This document shows positions 5,663 through 15,694 of a stretch of DNA of 38,398 nt, in pieces (the stretch's first letter is position 1; every line of letters begins with the position of its first letter). This DNA is from Streptacidiphilus neutrinimicus. Its GTDB lineage: Bacteria > Actinomycetota > Actinomycetes > Streptomycetales > Streptomycetaceae. The notes beneath the pieces were generated by a model. That model was not told the DNA's origin. It did not search any database and worked only from the letters and a program-made list of their open reading frames with translations. The stretch lies in assembly GCF_000787815.1 (NCBI RefSeq), contig NZ_BBPO01000021.1:1-38398 (forward strand), given 5' to 3'. Both the position numbers and the translations under genes were made by a program.

Positions 5663-8600
5663 GTGCGTTGGCTGATCTCTTCCTGCCTGCGACTCGCCGC
5701 CGCCGTCGTCGTCGCCGCCCTCGTGCTGATGGGGCTCGGCATCGGATCCCTGCGCCACGCCGCCGTGGACACGCTGCCCGAGTTCCTGCCGACCCAGGTG
5801 GAGGTCCAGACCGAGGCGGTCGGGCTCTCCACCAACGAGGTGGAGCAGCTGATCACCGTGCCGATGGAGGACGAGCTCAACGGCGTCGCCTTCCTGGACC
5901 ACATGCGCTCCCGTTCGATTCCGGGCCTCTCCGACATCCAGCTGACCTTCCAGCCCGGCACCGACCTCTACCAGGCCCGCCAGCTCGTCCAGGAGCGCGT
6001 CACCCAGGGCCCGGCCGTGGTGAACGTCGGCACCCCGCCCGTCATGGTGCAGCCGCTGTCCGCCGAGACCCGCGCGCTGATGGTCGGCATCTCCTCGACG
6101 AAGATCAGCCCTATCGACCTGTCGACCCTCGCCCGCTGGCGGATCCGTCCGCGGCTGCTGGCCGTGCCGGGCGTCGCCAACGTCACCATCTGGGGGCAGC
6201 GCGACCAGCAGCTCCAGGTCCTGGTCGACCCGGCCAAGATGCACGCCAAGGGCGTGACGCTCACACAGGTGATCAACACCGCCGGTGACGCGATGTGGAC
6301 CTCTCCGCTCTCCTTCGTCGAGGCCTCCTCCCCCGGCGCGGACGGCTTCATCGACACGCCCAACCAGCGCCTCTCCGTCCAGCACCTGCTGCCCATCTCC
6401 ACCCCTCAGGACCTGGCCAAGGTCCCGGTCGAGGTCGACACCGGCGTCAGCAAGCTGAAGCTCGGCGATGTGGCGACGGTCGTCGAGGACCACCCGCTGC
6501 TGCGCGGCGACGCGGTGTTGACCTCGCAGTCCGCCGACGGCACCGGCTTCCTGCTGGTCGTCGAGAAGTTCCCCGGCGCCGACGCCCTCACGGTGGACCG
6601 CGGGGTGCGGCAGGCCATGGCGGAGCTCGCGCCCGGACTGTCCGGCGTCAAGGTCGACACCAGCGTCTACGGGCCCGCGAACTACGTCGACTCGATGCTG
6701 CGCAACCTCGGCTGGGCCGCCCTGGCCGGTCTGGTGCTGCTGGTCGCCTGGTTCGGGCTGGCGTGGCGCTCGTGGCGGGTGGCGCTGGTCGGGCTGGTCG
6801 CGGTCACGCTGCCGCTGATCGCCGCCGCCTGGGTGCTGCAGCTGCGCGGCGCGACCTTCACCTGGTTCACCCTGGCGGGGCTCGCCGCCGCCCTCGCCGT
6901 CGTCGTGGACGACGCCGTCTCCGCGATCGCAGCGGTGCAGCGCGGCCTCGACCTGCCGCGCGGCCGGGAAGGCGACGGCACGAACGGTCAGGCGGGCACG
7001 GAGGGCGAGCGGCAGGACAGCCGGGACGGCCGCACCGCCGCGATCACCGACGCGCTGCTGGGCGTGCGCCGCCCGCTCGGCTGGGCGCTGGCCGTGCTGC
7101 TGCTCGCCGCCGTCCCGCTGCTGCTGGTCCCGGGCAGCAACGGCGCGCTGACCCGGCCGGTGCTCTTCAGCTACGTGCTCACCATGGTCGCCGCGACCGC
7201 CGTCGCCCTGACGGTCACCCCGGCGCTCGCGCTCCTGCTGCTGCGCCGCGCGCCCGAGGGACGCGCCGTCCCGCCCGTGGCGCGCTGGGTCGAGGCCGCC
7301 TACGACAGCCTCACCGCGGTGTTCGCCCGGCGTCGCGCCGCGTCCCTCGTGGTGGCCGGCGTGCTGGCGCTCGGCGCGCTGGCGATCATCCCGCAGTTCG
7401 GCGACGGCACACTGATCCCCACCCCGCAGGACCGGAACCTGGTGGTGCAGTGGAGCGCCGCCCCCGGCACCTCGCTGTCCGCCATGCGGCAGACCACCGA
7501 GGCGGCCGGCGCCGAGCTGCGGGCCGTCCCCGGCGTCACGGGGGTGGCCAGCGACATCGGCCAGGCCCTGCTCGGCGACCAGATCGTCAACGTGGACTCG
7601 GCGCAGACCTGGGTCACCGTCTCGGGCGGCGCGAACCTGGCGATGACGAAGTCTGCGATCGCCCAGGTGCTGGACCGCTACCCCGGCCTGCACCACCGGC
7701 TGCTGACGTACGCGCAGACCGCGCTCGCCGAGGCCCCCGCGTCGGACACCGACCCCGGCGACGGGGCACCCCTGACGGTCCGTCTCTACGGCACCGACTG
7801 GGCCACGCTGACGGCCGACGCGAACCGGCTGCGATCCGTGGTCGACGGCGTCGGCGGCGTCAGCGGTGCGACGATCCACCAGCCGACGCAGGAACCCTCG
7901 GTCCTGATCGACACGAACGTGGACCAGGCGGCCCAGTACGGGCTCTCTCCGGGCGACGTGCGCCGCGCGACCGCCGTCCTGATCTCCGGCATCCCCGTCG
8001 GCAGCTACTACCAGCAGCAGCAGATCTTCGACGTCGCCGTGTGGAGCGTCCCGGCGGTCCGCTCGAACCTGGGCGACATCGAGAACCTGATGCTGGACAC
8101 CCCCAGCGGCGGCCAGGTCCCACTCAAGGACGTCGCCACCGTCAGCATCGCGCCCACCCCGGCCGAGATCGACCACGAGCAGGCGTCCCGCTACCTCGAC
8201 ATCACCGCCCGGCTCCACGGCATCGACGCGGACACCGCCGTCTCACACGTGCGGGCGGCCGTGCGCGGCGTCGCCCTCCCGCTCGGCTACCACGCCGAGG
8301 TCTCCAGCGGTCTGGCGCAGCAGCAGAGCGCCGCTCTGGTGATCATCCTCGTGGCCGTCGGCTGCGCGCTGGGCACGCTGCTGCTGTTCCAGGCGGCGCT
8401 GCGGAGCTGGCCGCGCGCCGGGCTGCTGCTCGCCTCGCTCCCGCTGTCGCTGGCCGGCGGCGCGCTGACCGCGTACGCGGCGGGCCGCACGCTCACGGCC
8501 GGAACGCTGATCGGCTTCCTCGGCGTGCTGGCGCTCGCGGTGCGAGGCGGCATCCGGGTGCTGCGGCGGACCCGCGATCTCGAGCTGAGCGGCCGCTCGG

Positions 8601-9121
8601 GCGCGGCGGGCCTCGCGGCACGGGAGGCGTCGTTCCCGGTGGTCGCCACGGCGGTCGGCCTGATCCTCGTGGTCGTGCCGTTCACGCTGCGCGGCGACAT
8701 CGCCGGCCTGGAGCTGGTCCGCCCGCTCTCCTTCGTCCTGATCGGCGGGGCGGTGACGGCCACGGTGGTCACCCTCTTCCTCCTCCCCGCGTTCGCGGGC
8801 CAGGGGCCCGCGGAGGAGGACGAGGCGAAGCTCTTCCCGAGCGACGGCGGCGACCCGGGCGAGCGCGAGGCCGCCACACCGCGGCCCGGCCCGAGCGCGA
8901 CCGCGCTGGGGACGGCGCGGAGCAGCGCGGCTGCGACCTCAGGGGCACGAGGCTCTGCTGACAAGGGACTCCGCCCCGGGGCGCGACACGCCACCAAGCC
9001 AGGTAGCGTCCCGAACGAGGAGGGCCATCCTCCCCCAGCCTTCGGCCGGGGGGAGCCCCATCGGGGGGCCGGTCGCGCCCCTGATGTGCAGCCCCCCGCG
9101 CCAGGGCAAGGCACAGCCTGA
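5663..9121 (+). CDS. RND-family efflux permease, divergent partner (pump A)
   Basis: 1152 residues with the RND plan: one membrane helix at residues 8-28, a large extracytoplasmic loop, six helices, second loop, six helices. The N-terminal signature (DTLPEFLPTQVEVQTEAVGL, NEVEQLITVPME) is of the CzcA/CusA type. The proton-relay pair is kept in VVVDDAVSAI, but the Glu-Asn that usually follows it is lost, and the C-terminal RNG motif of the partner pump is RGG here. Residues from about 1045 are a 108-residue hydrophilic, Pro/Gly-rich tail absent from the partner; it contains a palindromic repeat. GTG 5663 is used with a GGGGGAAAC ribosome site. Stop and next start share one base (TGATG). RND pumps are best known from Gram-negative bacteria; substrate unknown. 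Confidence 0.9.
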   Translation: MRWLISSCLRLAAAVVVAALVLMGLGIGSLRHAAVDTLPEFLPTQVEVQTEAVGLSTNEVEQLITVPMEDELNGVAFLDHMRSRSIPGLSDIQLTFQPGTDLYQARQLVQERVTQGPAVVNVGTPPVMVQPLSAETRALMVGISSTKISPIDLSTLARWRIRPRLLAVPGVANVTIWGQRDQQLQVLVDPAKMHAKGVTLTQVINTAGDAMWTSPLSFVEASSPGADGFIDTPNQRLSVQHLLPISTPQDLAKVPVEVDTGVSKLKLGDVATVVEDHPLLRGDAVLTSQSADGTGFLLVVEKFPGADALTVDRGVRQAMAELAPGLSGVKVDTSVYGPANYVDSMLRNLGWAALAGLVLLVAWFGLAWRSWRVALVGLVAVTLPLIAAAWVLQLRGATFTWFTLAGLAAALAVVVDDAVSAIAAVQRGLDLPRGREGDGTNGQAGTEGERQDSRDGRTAAITDALLGVRRPLGWALAVLLLAAVPLLLVPGSNGALTRPVLFSYVLTMVAATAVALTVTPALALLLLRRAPEGRAVPPVARWVEAAYDSLTAVFARRRAASLVVAGVLALGALAIIPQFGDGTLIPTPQDRNLVVQWSAAPGTSLSAMRQTTEAAGAELRAVPGVTGVASDIGQALLGDQIVNVDSAQTWVTVSGGANLAMTKSAIAQVLDRYPGLHHRLLTYAQTALAEAPASDTDPGDGAPLTVRLYGTDWATLTADANRLRSVVDGVGGVSGATIHQPTQEPSVLIDTNVDQAAQYGLSPGDVRRATAVLISGIPVGSYYQQQQIFDVAVWSVPAVRSNLGDIENLMLDTPSGGQVPLKDVATVSIAPTPAEIDHEQASRYLDITARLHGIDADTAVSHVRAAVRGVALPLGYHAEVSSGLAQQQSAALVIILVAVGCALGTLLLFQAALRSWPRAGLLLASLPLSLAGGALTAYAAGRTLTAGTLIGFLGVLALAVRGGIRVLRRTRDLELSGRSGAAGLAAREASFPVVATAVGLILVVVPFTLRGDIAGLELVRPLSFVLIGGAVTATVVTLFLLPAFAGQGPAEEDEAKLFPSDGGDPGEREAATPRPGPSATALGTARSSAAATSGARGSADKGLRPGARHATKPGSVPNEEGHPPPAFGRGEPHRGAGRAPDVQPPAPGQGTA
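9031..9073. repeat. Palindromic intergenic-type repeat inside the 3' end of pump A
   Basis: CCCCCAGCC / GGCCGGGGGG around a TTC loop (9032-9052), followed by CCCC-ATC-GGGGGG (9056-9067). Hairpins of this form are, from memory, frequent between Streptomyces genes. Here it is translated as part of the pump A tail, which suggests the ORF grew by run-through after the original stop was lost, or that the element inserted. Confidence 0.5.
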
Positions 9122-9582
9122 TGTCGCGGGTACGTGTACTCGCCGGCGTCGTGGCCGCGATCGTGGGGCTGCCCGTGGTCGCCGCCTGTGGGCCCAAGGA
9201 CGAGACCCCCGCCTCCTACAGGCCCGCGTCGCTCGCGCCGCTGCCCAGCGCCGTCGCCGCGCTGCCGGGGTACGGGCACGTGCGGAAGGTCGTGCTCACC
9301 CCGCTCGCGGAACAGCGCCTGCGGGTGCGGACGGTGACCGTCGCTCCGGGGGCGGGCGGTGAGACGGAGGCGCCCATCACCGCCGTGATCTACGACCCCG
9401 ACGGCGTCCCCTGGGTGTACGTCCCGGACGGCGGCCACGCCTACACGCGGCACGCCATCACCATCGCGCGGTACGACGGCGACACGGTCGTCCTCGGCGC
9501 GGGGCCGAAGGCGGGCACCGCCGTGGTCGTCGTCGGCGCAGCCGAGCTGCTGGGCACCGAGTACGGAGTGGGGGAGGAATGA
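9121..9582 (+). CDS. Lipoprotein resembling only the C-terminal domain of an RND membrane fusion protein
   Basis: 153 residues. A signal peptide ends in the lipobox VAAC, placing the lipidated Cys at residue 23, so the protein is anchored on the outer face of the membrane. About residues 75-153 read like the membrane-proximal C-terminal domain of periplasmic adaptors: AVIYDPDGVPWVYVPDGG, ARYDGDTVVLGAGPKAGT, and AAELLGTEYGVGEE at the end. The lipoyl, alpha-hairpin and most beta-barrel regions of a normal 350-450-residue adaptor are missing. It overlaps both pump genes (1 base before, 4 bases after), so the three products are probably made together. Inference: a minimal adaptor or docking subunit for the pumps. 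Confidence 0.8.
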   Translation: MSRVRVLAGVVAAIVGLPVVAACGPKDETPASYRPASLAPLPSAVAALPGYGHVRKVVLTPLAEQRLRVRTVTVAPGAGGETEAPITAVIYDPDGVPWVYVPDGGHAYTRHAITIARYDGDTVVLGAGPKAGTAVVVVGAAELLGTEYGVGEE

Positions 9583-12823: not shown

Positions 12824-13006
12824 CTCAGCCCAGGGCGGCGCGGCCCCGGGCGCGCCTCAACCCGGGGCAGCTCAGCCCAGGGCGGCTCAGCCCAGGGCGC
12901 CTCAGCCCAGGGCGGCTCAGCCTGGGGCGGCTCAGCCCGGGCGCGCCTCAACCCGGGGCAGCTCAGCCCGGGGCGGCTCAGCCCGGGGCGGCGATGCCCG
13001 GGGCGG
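12824..13006. repeat. 15-bp tandem repeat, about 12 copies
   Basis: Units such as CTCAGCCCAGGGCGG and CTCAGCCCGGGGCGG run head to tail from just after pump B into the 3' end of the tetR gene. Two units are one or two bases longer (CGCGC inserts), giving a higher-order repeat. The last two units (12977-13006) carry the tetR stop and its last codons. Confidence 0.8.
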
Positions 13007-13610
13007 CGATGCCTTCCAGGACCATGGACAGGTACTGCCGGGCGATCTGCTCCGGGCTGTGCCCGCCGCCCGGCCGGTACCAGGACGCGGCGACCCACAC
13101 GGTGTCCCGCAGGAACCGGTAGGCGAGCCGCAGATCGAGATCCGCGCGGAAGGCGTGCGCGGAGACGCCGCGCTCAAGCGTCTCCAGCCACACCTGCTCG
13201 AAGCGCCGCTGCGATTCGGCCAGGAACGCGAACCGCGGCTGCACCGCGAGCTGGCGGGCCTCCTTTTGGTAGATCGCCACCGCGTCGCGGTGCCGGTCGA
13301 TCTCCCGGAACGACTCCGTCACCAGCGCGGCCAGGGTGTCCTTGGGGTCGAGCCGGGCGGCGAGGACCTCGTCGTAGCCGGCCCACAGCTCGTCCAGGAA
13401 GCCCGAGAGGATCTCCTCGAGCATCGACTCCTTGGAGTCGAAGTGGTAGTAGAGGCTCCCGGCCAGCAGCCCCGCCTCGTCCGCGATCTTCCGCACGGTC
13501 GTGGCGTTGTAGCCCTGCTCCGCGAAGACCCGGGCGGCGGTCTCCAGGATCTCCCGCCGCCGGGCTGGAGACGCCGACTGGCTGCTTCTCTGTGTACTCG
13601 GCACCCTCAC
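12978..13610 (-). CDS. TetR/AcrR-family transcriptional regulator (KstR2-like C-terminal domain)
   Basis: 210 residues. Residues about 17-65 are the DNA-binding helix-turn-helix (RREILETAARVFAEQGYNA, TTVRKIADEAGL, GSLYYHFDSKESML). The ligand domain ends with DTVWVAASWYRPGG, EQIARQYLSMVLEGI, which resembles the KstR2/TetR_C_33 class that often senses acyl-CoA esters (family knowledge). The start is GTG 13610 with AGGAG four bases ahead; GTG 13604 is possible. The final residues GIAAPGIAAPG are encoded by the 15-bp repeat. It converges on the RND operon and diverges from the TPR gene; which it controls is not shown. The divergent TPR gene is only 122 bases away. Confidence 0.9.
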   Translation of the reverse strand: MRVPSTQRSSQSASPARRREILETAARVFAEQGYNATTVRKIADEAGLLAGSLYYHFDSKESMLEEILSGFLDELWAGYDEVLAARLDPKDTLAALVTESFREIDRHRDAVAIYQKEARQLAVQPRFAFLAESQRRFEQVWLETLERGVSAHAFRADLDLRLAYRFLRDTVWVAASWYRPGGGHSPEQIARQYLSMVLEGIAAPGIAAPG

Positions 13611-13720
13611 ATTCTCCTGTACGAAACCCTGCGGTCCCCCGGCGGGGGCGCGGCGGCTTCGGCTGCCGCTCGGAATCGTCCGGTGTCCGAATTGTCCACC
13701 CGACTGTCCGTACACGGGGC

Positions 13721-13726
13721 TAGGGT
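13721..13726 (+). promoter_or_regulatory. Likely -10 of a leaderless transcript for the TPR gene
   Basis: TAGGGT stands six bases before ATG 13733, the spacing expected if transcription starts at the start codon. No Shine-Dalgarno sequence is seen. The same arrangement occurs at 16970. TTGTCCACC (13692-13700) just upstream differs from a DnaA box by one base. Confidence 0.5.
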
Positions 13727-13732
13727 TCGGCC

Positions 13733-15694
13733 ATGGCTGATTCCGGAGACCTCGACGGATTGCACTCGTGTTCGGTCGGCGGCGCGGAGCGACTCGACGC
13801 CGAGGGCGAGATCGCGGTGGCGCGTCTCGCCATGGACGGCGGCGACCTCGCGCACGCCGCCACGCACGTCGGCAACGCGATCGCCACCGCACCCCAACTG
13901 CCCGAGGCGCACGAGGCGCTGGGCGAGCTCGCCGCCCGGGCCGGCGGCGCCGAGGCCGCGCTCGCGCTCTTCCCGATGGAGCGGCCCTACATCGGCGCCG
14001 TCGCGGCCCGCGCGAATCTGCTCGCGGCCTGCGGCCAGTGGAACCAGGCGTTGCGCCTGCTCGCGGAGGTCGTGGCCACGGAGCCGGGCCGGCCCTGGTC
14101 CGAGGTGGCCTGGCTGAGCCGCCCCGACCTGCCGTCCCTGGTCAGCCCCGAGGTCGTCGCCCAGTCCATCGGCCGGATCGTCGGCTCGGGCCTGCCCGAC
14201 CCCTTTCCCGAGGTGCTGCGCACCAGCCTGCGGCCCTTCTACGACGCGGTCCGCGCCGCCACCGCCGCGCATCGGCGGCACGCGATGCTGCTCTCGCTCG
14301 CCTCCGGCCTGGCCCGGCGCTACGACGACCACGACGAGTCGATCGCCTGGGCCCGCGCCGCCGTCGCCGCCGAGCCCACGCACATGAGCGCGGTCATGCT
14401 CGGCTACGCGCTGCGCGCCGCGGGCAGGCCCGACGAGGCGCTCTCCGTCTGGACGGACGAGCTGGCCCGCGACCCGGCCGACCTCAGCCTGCATGTGGAC
14501 GTCGCCGAGCTGTACGCCGCGACCGGTCGGCCCGAGCTCGGCCTGCCCTGGGCCGAGAGGGCCGTCGCCGCGAACGCCGACGACCCGCTGGTCGTCCCCG
14601 CCCTCCACGGCATCCGCTTCGCCGTGGACCAGGACCCGGCCCATCTGGTCGCCCTCGTCGACCACCTGCGCGAACACCCGGACCACGACTACGCCGCGAC
14701 GGTCCTGGCCCAGCACAGCAAGGGCCGCCCCTGGCTGGCCGGCGTCAGCCCCGCCCGCGAGGCGACAGCGAACATGCTGCGGCAGTTCCCGCGCAGCCCC
14801 GACGTCGAGGCGCACCACGGCCTCTCCGTCGTGGGCTCCGCCGTCGAGGCGCCCAGCTGCGTGCTGACGCTGCTTCAGTGCTTCCCCCACGCCGACCTGG
14901 AGTTCCGGTCCATACCCGAGCCGGATCCCCGGCACCCGCTGCACCCGGTCAGCACACAGGTCTGGAACTACCTCGGCACCGTGGCCGAGCCCGCCGTCGC
15001 CGCGCCGTCGGCGGAGGCGAGCGCGGCGGTGCGGTCCGTCGCCGAGCACGTCTGGCCGTCGCTGCCCGCCGCCTACGACCGCGCCGTCCTGCTGGCCTCG
15101 ATCCCGATCACGCAGCTTCTCGGCGTGCTGGTGCACCCGCCGCTCCCCCGGGACGACGAGCGGGGCCGAGCCCTGGCCGCGAACGCCCCCGACCTCTGGG
15201 TGCGCGCCGTGCAGGTCTTCGCCTGCCTGGGCATCGCCCACCACGGCACGGACACCCCGTGGCCGGAGTCGGAACGTCGCCGTGTCCTGTCCGATCTGCT
15301 GGTCGGCCCCGAGGACTGGGTCACCGAGGCGGCCGGCCTCGCCCTGCTCGCCGTCGCCTGGAGTGAGCCCGCCACCAGGGAGGACATCGGGCGGCTGCTG
15401 GCGGCCCGGCTGGCCTTCGCCACGCGGGCCTTCCGTACCCGCCCGGTCGAGGTGCTGCCGACCCTCTGCGCCCTCGTCCTCGCCTGCCCCTGGCTCGACG
15501 AGCGGGACCGGGAGCCGGCGCGCCTCGCGGCGGAGGCCGTCCGCCGCAGTGACGAGGCGTCCGAACCGGTGGACGCGGAACAGCGGGGGCGTGAACTCGT
15601 GGCCGCTGGGAAGGAGCGCGCGAGAGAGAAGGTGCGCTCCACGGAGGAACCGGAGCCGAGGCGGCGGGGCCTCTTCCGTCGACGCCGCCGCTGA
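13733..15694 (+). CDS. Tetratricopeptide-repeat protein, function unknown
   Basis: 653 residues, soluble, almost entirely helical with Ala-rich TPR-like units. Examples are AVARLAMDGGDLAHAATHVG, EALGELAARAGGAEAALALF, NLLAACGQWNQALRLLAEVV and, at about residues 215-300, ALRAAGRPDEALSVWTDEL with LYAATGRPELGLPWAERAV. The end is strongly basic (EPEPRRRGLFRRRRR), which could bind nucleic acid or membrane. No enzyme motif was seen. It probably starts without a leader. A 53-residue gene begins 44 bases downstream and then a cysteine-rich protein, so it may head a three-gene operon. Confidence 0.8.
   Translation: MADSGDLDGLHSCSVGGAERLDAEGEIAVARLAMDGGDLAHAATHVGNAIATAPQLPEAHEALGELAARAGGAEAALALFPMERPYIGAVAARANLLAACGQWNQALRLLAEVVATEPGRPWSEVAWLSRPDLPSLVSPEVVAQSIGRIVGSGLPDPFPEVLRTSLRPFYDAVRAATAAHRRHAMLLSLASGLARRYDDHDESIAWARAAVAAEPTHMSAVMLGYALRAAGRPDEALSVWTDELARDPADLSLHVDVAELYAATGRPELGLPWAERAVAANADDPLVVPALHGIRFAVDQDPAHLVALVDHLREHPDHDYAATVLAQHSKGRPWLAGVSPAREATANMLRQFPRSPDVEAHHGLSVVGSAVEAPSCVLTLLQCFPHADLEFRSIPEPDPRHPLHPVSTQVWNYLGTVAEPAVAAPSAEASAAVRSVAEHVWPSLPAAYDRAVLLASIPITQLLGVLVHPPLPRDDERGRALAANAPDLWVRAVQVFACLGIAHHGTDTPWPESERRRVLSDLLVGPEDWVTEAAGLALLAVAWSEPATREDIGRLLAARLAFATRAFRTRPVEVLPTLCALVLACPWLDERDREPARLAAEAVRRSDEASEPVDAEQRGRELVAAGKERAREKVRSTEEPEPRRRGLFRRRRR

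Follow-up and report, generated by a model that had tools for sequence, protein, structure and literature searches.

The DNA analysed here (the window) is a 38,398-nucleotide stretch of Streptacidiphilus neutrinimicus (contig NZ_BBPO01000021.1, assembly GCF_000787815.1), in which a short gene, referred to as mini, lies between the genes of two paralogous permeases of the resistance-nodulation-division (RND) type, pump A upstream and pump B downstream (Table 1). Mini encodes a homologue of the membrane-proximal domain (MPD) of RND adaptors. As claimed in the initial annotation of this DNA, its open reading frame (ORF) overlaps both pump genes, sharing 1 nt with that of pump A (TGATG) and 4 nt with that of pump B (ATGA). 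Overlapping genes were counted in 34 of 38 mini loci, a figure biased upward by the script, which chose mini starts at or after the point 40 nt before the upstream pump stop.

The lipobox at Cys23, also part of that annotation, was recovered: the cysteine is preceded by V-A-A within a hydrophobic N-terminus, and a cysteine occupies the anchor position in 38 of 39 aligned minis, the exception (L049) having a hydrophobic N-terminus without Cys. A loose lipobox pattern fits 34 of 38 relatives. Judged by sequence only, mini would possess the N-terminal membrane anchor of RND adaptors. The gene is real, since homologues occur in 16 of 61 genomes near the window species (window genome included) and the ratio of nonsynonymous to synonymous substitution rates (dN/dS), obtained by simple counting in comparisons with five congeners, is 0.22-0.53.

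Table 1. Features of the three-gene locus in window coordinates, with the evidence for each.
Feature	Position	Strand	Evidence
Pump A, RND permease (ACR_tran, heavy-metal efflux (HME)-like), 1152 amino acids (aa)	5663..9121	+	Pfam, NCBIfam, alignment
Mini, MPD-only adaptor lipoprotein, 153 aa	9121..9582	+	ORF, NCBIfam match, alignment, hidden Markov models (HMMs), AlphaFold model, Foldseek
Signal peptide and lipobox ending at Cys23 (VAAC)	9121..9189	+	sequence
N-terminal MPD segment, residues 54-74 (VRKVVLTPLAEQRLRVRTVTV)	9280..9342	+	alignment, HMM
C-terminal MPD block, residues 85-147, ending in the AELLG-E motif	9373..9561	+	alignment, HMM
Pump B, RND permease (ACR_tran, HME-like), 1075 aa	9579..12806	+	Pfam, NCBIfam, alignment

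Adaptor homology and predicted fold of mini

The C-terminal stretch of mini had been described as adaptor-like, and the NCBIfam model TIGR01730 (RND_mfp) indeed aligns positions 252-313 of its 322 with mini residues 81-143 (E = 1.3e-4), at a score of 21.1 bits that is far below the whole-protein cut-off of 94.9. The same model matches 12 of 17 mini family members at E ≤ 0.1. Pfam gave no match to mini at E ≤ 1 and weak, scattered matches across the mini family; the adaptor homology is based on NCBIfam, family HMMs and fold, not on Pfam.

Alignment of 8 minis, 6 Rokubacteria homologues and 33 full-length adaptors revealed two common blocks, the N-terminal one with the pattern V-x-L-T-x-x-A-x-x-R-L-x-I-x-T and the C-terminal one running from a conserved P-x-x-A-V-x-Y-D to A-E-L-x-G-x-E. 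HMMs were built from minis only (38 with an upstream pump, also used for spacing, plus the window protein, 39 in all) and compared with 990 shuffled controls. The C-part HMM matched all 33 full-length adaptors, always C-terminally and with 57.7-85.1 bits against a shuffle maximum of 6.1. With the 21-residue N-part HMM, 30 of the 33 exceeded the shuffle maximum of 7.8, two fell below it and one had no match; these matches lay on the N-terminal side, except in L097, whose start is doubtful. The two parts are separated by 202-309 residues in all 33 full-length adaptors and by 5-18 residues in all 38 minis, a spacing that accommodates none of the beta-barrel, lipoyl and alpha-hairpin domains of RND adaptors. 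The MPD is made from both adaptor ends, and mini retains both, with the middle removed. The initial annotation had described mini as only the last domain of an adaptor: reduction to the pump-contacting domain stands, whereas "last" needs correction, as the MPD draws on both ends and the N-terminal segment is also kept. By profile, AcrA Gly363 aligns with mini Gly139, a position at which 36 of 39 minis have Gly and the other three Ala.

An AlphaFold model of mini, made from 17 sequences, had a mean predicted local distance difference test (pLDDT) score of 83.7 and a predicted template modelling (pTM) score of 0.72, and was confident over residues 31-150 (ten-residue block means 83-97). When it was searched against the PDB with Foldseek, the first 30 matches were adaptor chains, unrelated proteins appearing from rank 31, so that the prediction did not yield an unrelated fold. 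The adaptors matched included AcrA, MexA, TriA, MexC-like, CusB, BesA, ZneB and SilB, some chain identities being inferred from entry and length, and the root-mean-square deviation (rmsd) was 1.2-2.5 in 26 of these 30, mostly over ~60 residues.

The Rokubacteria homologues occupy a middle position, with 107-114 residues between the MPD parts in five of six and 44 in the sixth. In five Rokubacteria metagenome-assembled genomes (MAGs) the form consists of MPD and barrel, without lipoyl domain or hairpin. A model of it (pLDDT 88.7) comprised the MPD plus six strands and one helix, as an adaptor barrel would give, and had 35 PDB matches at E ≤ 0.001; the first 37 matches were adaptors, with CusB on top, at a large full-length rmsd. 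We regard these forms as extant intermediate stages of adaptor domain loss.

Shortening of another kind was seen among the full-length adaptors. Just 202-212 residues separate the MPD parts in 7 of the 33, and six adaptors (L076, L088, L100, L103, L107, L108) measure 334-346 aa; in the alignment, L076, L088, L100 and L108 keep the hairpin and lack most of the lipoyl region, another reduced architecture.

Distribution, pump pair and origin

One genome for each of 84,980 species was scanned, and the best 80 of 282 loci were kept: 40 minis, the six Rokubacteria intermediates, 33 full-length adaptors, and L105, where the contig ends within the adaptor. The three-gene order (triad) recurs, pumps lying on both sides at 38 of the 40 mini loci and at all six Rokubacteria loci; one further mini (L072) stands at a contig start with its downstream pump present. 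A separate sample of Actinomycetota contained mini in 15 of 396 genomes and 12 of 237 genera, a patchy occurrence, and among its 17 places outside the window, 15 were flanked by pumps on both sides, one (L135) was cut by a contig end and one (L142) had the downstream pump only. Genetic linkage to an RND permease, a property of RND adaptors, is therefore shared by mini. In full-length loci the adaptor gene is upstream of its pump, and mini is directly upstream of pump B.

Most minis belong to Actinomycetota, among them Streptacidiphilus, Kitasatospora, Catenulispora, Lentzea, Actinocrispum, Kribbella, Rhodococcus, Arthrobacter, Pseudarthrobacter and Solirubrobacter; outside this phylum they were found in one Chloroflexota MAG, one Gemmatimonadota MAG and unassigned MAGs. 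Close to the window species, mini was present in 9 of 13 other genomes of the genus and absent from all 23 genomes examined of other genera in the family.

Both pumps are full-length permeases that match Pfam ACR_tran far above cut-off (pump A, E 3.2e-133; pump B, E 4.9e-213). The nearest NCBIfam model, TIGR00914 (CusA/CzcA), gave 338.9 bits for pump A and 600.8 for pump B, both under its cut-off of 701.45, and the solved structures that pump B most resembles are ZneA and CusA. At the methionine positions of CusA, M573/M623/M672, pump B aligns H607, A657 and E701 in place of the methionines. Since these residues are His, Ala and Glu, a Cu(I)/Ag(I) pump appears unlikely, and the alignment would be compatible with a divalent cation or another substrate.

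The two pumps were compared in 41 of 45 triads (36 with minis, 4 from Rokubacteria and that of the window); in the other 4, which were omitted, a pump was short, split or cut. In the window, the motif of transmembrane helix 4 (TM4) is intact in pump B (VVDDAIIDVEN), whereas the later Asp and Glu are replaced by Ala in pump A (VDDAVSAIAAV). All four acidic residues of the motif are present in 39/41 pump B proteins and 4/41 pump A proteins. In pump A, the counterpart of CusA Asp D405 is present in 26/41 and lost in 15/41; the Asp of D-V-E is kept in 22/41 and the Glu in 10/41. Columns with at least 95% identity numbered 338 in pump B and 159 in pump A, of which 65 and 29 were charged, 19 of them common; selecting columns in pump B alone would favour B, a bias from which this symmetric count is free. 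Pairwise identity was lower in pump A than in pump B for all pairs of triads. Pump A thus diverges faster, and its TM4 proton relay is eroded in most of the lineages compared, not in all.

Pump A of the window also carries a Pro/Ala/Gly-rich C-terminal tail of ~108 residues past the ACR_tran match (after residue ~1044; window about 8795-9118), and the pump A proteins of other Streptacidiphilus are likewise long (1114-1165 aa). In the Chloroflexota MAG, pump B is split into two ORFs (L045:6428-9432) by a frameshift or an assembly error.

In a tree of the adaptor C-block, triad adaptors split from full-length ones with a Shimodaira-Hasegawa-like approximate likelihood ratio test (SH-aLRT) support of 98; this MPD tree has 72 columns, and the order of Rokubacteria forms and minis is beyond its resolution. 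The pump tree comprised 117 of 124 rows after removal of L096_dn, a supposed pump that reached 85.8 bits in the search with the mini HMMs and is in fact the adaptor (401 aa), and of six short pump fragments. Here triad pumps split from the pumps of full-length adaptors with support of 100, and the upstream (A) and downstream (B) groups were largely mirrored, which is consistent with a single duplication. The Rokubacteria pumps stand at the base of pump A, a group of low support overall. We infer that a duplication may have copied the whole adaptor-pump unit, after which most lineages lost the first adaptor. The arrangement in one genome (G083; locus L144, contig C68, minus strand), where the order is mini, pump A, mini, pump B and a fourth gene, fits this scenario.

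A conserved fourth gene of this kind, ~285-320 aa and secreted-looking, with the motifs D-N-x-W-x-P-x-K-P-G and V-T-D-L-T-K-V, was detected near other triads with an HMM built from 8 of its members. It was found at 13 of 38 mini loci, at all six Rokubacteria loci, at L072 and at L144, and beside none of the 33 full-length adaptors. The loci are L048 (9398-10366), L041, L045, L046, L049, L050, L051, L056, L057, L058, L060, L062, L063, L071, L072, L084, L086, L092, L106, L109 and L144; the gene was not found in the window. Seven of its proteins had no Pfam match, and six had weak, sub-cut-off NCBIfam matches only; the gene without a family match therefore gives no substrate name. Response-regulator genes upstream of pump A at L041, L045, L048, L060, L071 and L106 suggest possible two-component control; Pfam confirms the regulator at L048 (Response_reg and LuxR) and a sensor at L045 (HisKA_3), the others being read from sequence. 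In the window, a minus-strand ORF at 12978-13892, convergent with pump B, reads as a putative TetR-type regulator. One Arthrobacter mini, searched against a plasmid collection (E 1e-5), matched five Hymenobacter adaptors over 45% of its length and nothing else, so annotated neighbours were unusable for inferring a substrate.

Proposed mechanism and alternatives

In the window genome, pumps A and B are the only ACR_tran permeases over the cut-off. Because the sole adaptor above the TIGR01730 cut-off adjoins, on another contig, a permease that by reading is an FtsX/MacB-like one of the ATP-binding cassette (ABC) type, mini is the best adaptor candidate for the two pumps. Features for docking on an outer-membrane factor (OMF) were found neither in the protein, which has no hairpin, nor in the window genome, which gave no OEP/TolC match.

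With a probability of roughly two in three, we propose that mini is an RND adaptor reduced to a lipid-anchored MPD, encoded between two paralogous permeases and working without an outer-membrane channel. The hairpin, lipoyl and beta-barrel domains have been lost, and the remaining MPD, whose homology is demonstrated above, would be tethered at the outer leaflet of the cytoplasmic membrane. Docking may take place at the porter domain, either that of pump B or that of an A/B hetero-trimer; mini would thereby gate the transporter, its role being limited to what is thought for the MPDs of full adaptors, namely stabilising the state with bound substrate and stimulating proton-coupled extrusion. The substrate would be released on the outer side of the membrane, with no bridge to an outer-membrane channel, and pump A could have become partly specialised, or non-conducting, as the partner of pump B. 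The C-terminal/MPD part of AcrA and MacA is reported to be critical for transporter stimulation, and AcrA G363C to block the functional but not the physical interaction (PMC4338810). A more detailed model, which we offer only tentatively and with the odds somewhat against it, is an asymmetric A/B hetero-trimer: pump A, its proton relay no longer working, would be a pseudo-transporter, a free-standing MPD would be the activator, and no outer-membrane channel would take part. Such a machine would derive from an adaptor-pump duplication and stepwise removal of the bridging domains.

Several observations weigh against these proposals. The Foldseek E-values of the mini model are weak (best 5.6e-3, none ≤ 0.001), and two sub-cut-off TIGR01730 matches (31.2 and 28.7 bits) lie on another contig of the window genome (C145). 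Both TM4 aspartates are retained in the window pump A, and the pump A proteins of L041, L064, L084 and L106 keep the whole motif. An Arthrobacter mini (L077, 5854-6306) has no RND pump detected in its 12-kb locus; the same strain also carries a normal triad (L079). Where each pump has its own preceding mini, in G083, the order also fits two independent adaptor-pump units. For the duplication scenario, pump A as one group has a low SH-aLRT of 19, against 99 for pump B, in a sample limited to pumps beside adaptor hits. Moreover, the MPD in AcrA and MacA is thought to be driven by OMF binding (PMC4338810), so that an MPD without hairpin or OMF may lack this trigger or use another.

The absence of a channel requires similar care. 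OEP matches in MAGs with reduced adaptors, counted in five genomes taken as binned, numbered 11, 8 and 7 in Rokubacteria, 15 in Gemmatimonadota and none in Chloroflexota. OMF independence is hence not established for the Gemmatimonadota and Rokubacteria MAGs, and bridge loss extends beyond cells without an outer membrane. The original rationale that a Gram-positive cell needs no bridge therefore holds as part of the story, but reduced forms also occur in MAGs with 7-15 OEP matches; it is further weakened because other Gram-positive adaptors are reported to keep the hairpin (PMC4446572, PMC4338810).

Among the alternatives, the strongest is that mini serves pump B alone, A and B being separate co-transcribed homotrimers, with A adaptor-free or having its own function. 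The position of mini directly upstream of B, like that of full-length adaptor genes upstream of their pumps, speaks for it, as do the separate minis of G083 and the intact pump A motifs of four triads. Both pumps are, however, kept together at 38 of 40 mini loci, and loss of the CusA-D405-equivalent Asp in 15 of 41 pump A proteins would cripple an independent homotrimer there, so we consider this reading rather doubtful. Less probable still, and in our view unlikely, mini could help the pump to assemble or oligomerise instead of gating or activating it. This would resemble MmpS5, a small membrane-anchored accessory that is reported to be needed for trimerisation and activity of the actinobacterial RND pump MmpL5 (PMC12501195); mini is, however, homologous to adaptor MPDs and its first fold matches are adaptors, and the idea departs from MPD-based activation only in the step affected.

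That mini is a periplasmic metal chaperone or substrate loader feeding the pump, in the manner of CusF, seems very improbable. Metal-pump adaptors can bind metal (PMC4338810), and the likeness of pump B to ZneA and CusA would suit such a role, but apart from the initiator Met, minis have no invariant His or Met, and the sole nearly invariant Cys is the lipid anchor. Hardly credible is a decaying, functionless adaptor remnant: three of four adaptor domains are absent and the orphan copy L077 lacks pumps, but conservation already contradicts decay, given the dN/dS values, eight invariant columns beyond the start Met in a 23-member multi-phylum mini alignment, and the pumps that flank mini on both sides at 38 of its 40 loci.

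Significance and relation to known systems

Hairpin-less adaptors might have been expected in Gram-positive bacteria, yet those described are not (PMC4446572), and the conservation of their hairpin has been termed puzzling (PMC4338810). No MPD-only adaptor was found in the consulted parts of the open-licence PMC literature, nor in passages of a 2026 adaptor review (PMC13328181). The MPD has been considered either a spacer or an element of cargo selection and presentation (PMC4446572). A natural MPD-only adaptor strips away the bridging role and isolates the MPD; with bridging removed, self-sufficient activation of an RND pump by the MPD becomes directly testable with a small protein. The MPD-plus-barrel intermediates offer a living series of domain loss, and the eroded partner pump a natural test of the need for three working proton relays per RND trimer.

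Mini shares with RND adaptors such as AcrA, MexA, CusB and ZneB (TIGR01730) a homologous MPD, an N-terminal membrane anchor, a gene directly upstream of an RND permease and a Gly equivalent to AcrA Gly363, and differs from them in lacking beta-barrel, lipoyl domain and hairpin, in scoring below the TIGR01730 cut-off and in residing in a genome where no OEP gene was found. MuxABC is reportedly a two-permease RND system like MdtABC, and both MdtBC and MuxBC use a full-length adaptor and a TolC-type channel. The triad resembles MdtBC in having two paralogous RND permeases in one operon (MdtABC, PMC8277102), and is unlike MdtBC and MuxBC in its MPD-only adaptor and in the mostly eroded TM4 motif of pump A.

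MmpS5 of mycobacterial MmpS5L5 is likewise a small accessory (~15 kDa) that is anchored in the membrane and coupled to an actinobacterial RND pump, but has an immunoglobulin-like domain with a transmembrane helix and serves a pump of the hydrophobe/amphiphile efflux-2 (HAE-2) class (PMC12501195); no MmpS-MmpL complex was present among the best 50 of 642 fold matches of mini. YknX-type adaptors also operate in a Gram-positive cell; unlike mini, YknX has a prominent hairpin and an ABC transporter as partner, and in 2015 it was described as the sole adaptor of Gram-positive bacteria in which an MPD had until then been recognised (PMC4446572). BesA of Borrelia burgdorferi, which is among the Foldseek matches of both the mini and the Rokubacteria models, is a naturally reduced, lipid-anchored RND adaptor as well; it has lost the hairpin, keeps lipoyl domain, barrel and MPD and works with the OMF BesC (PMC3807786), whereas mini is MPD only.

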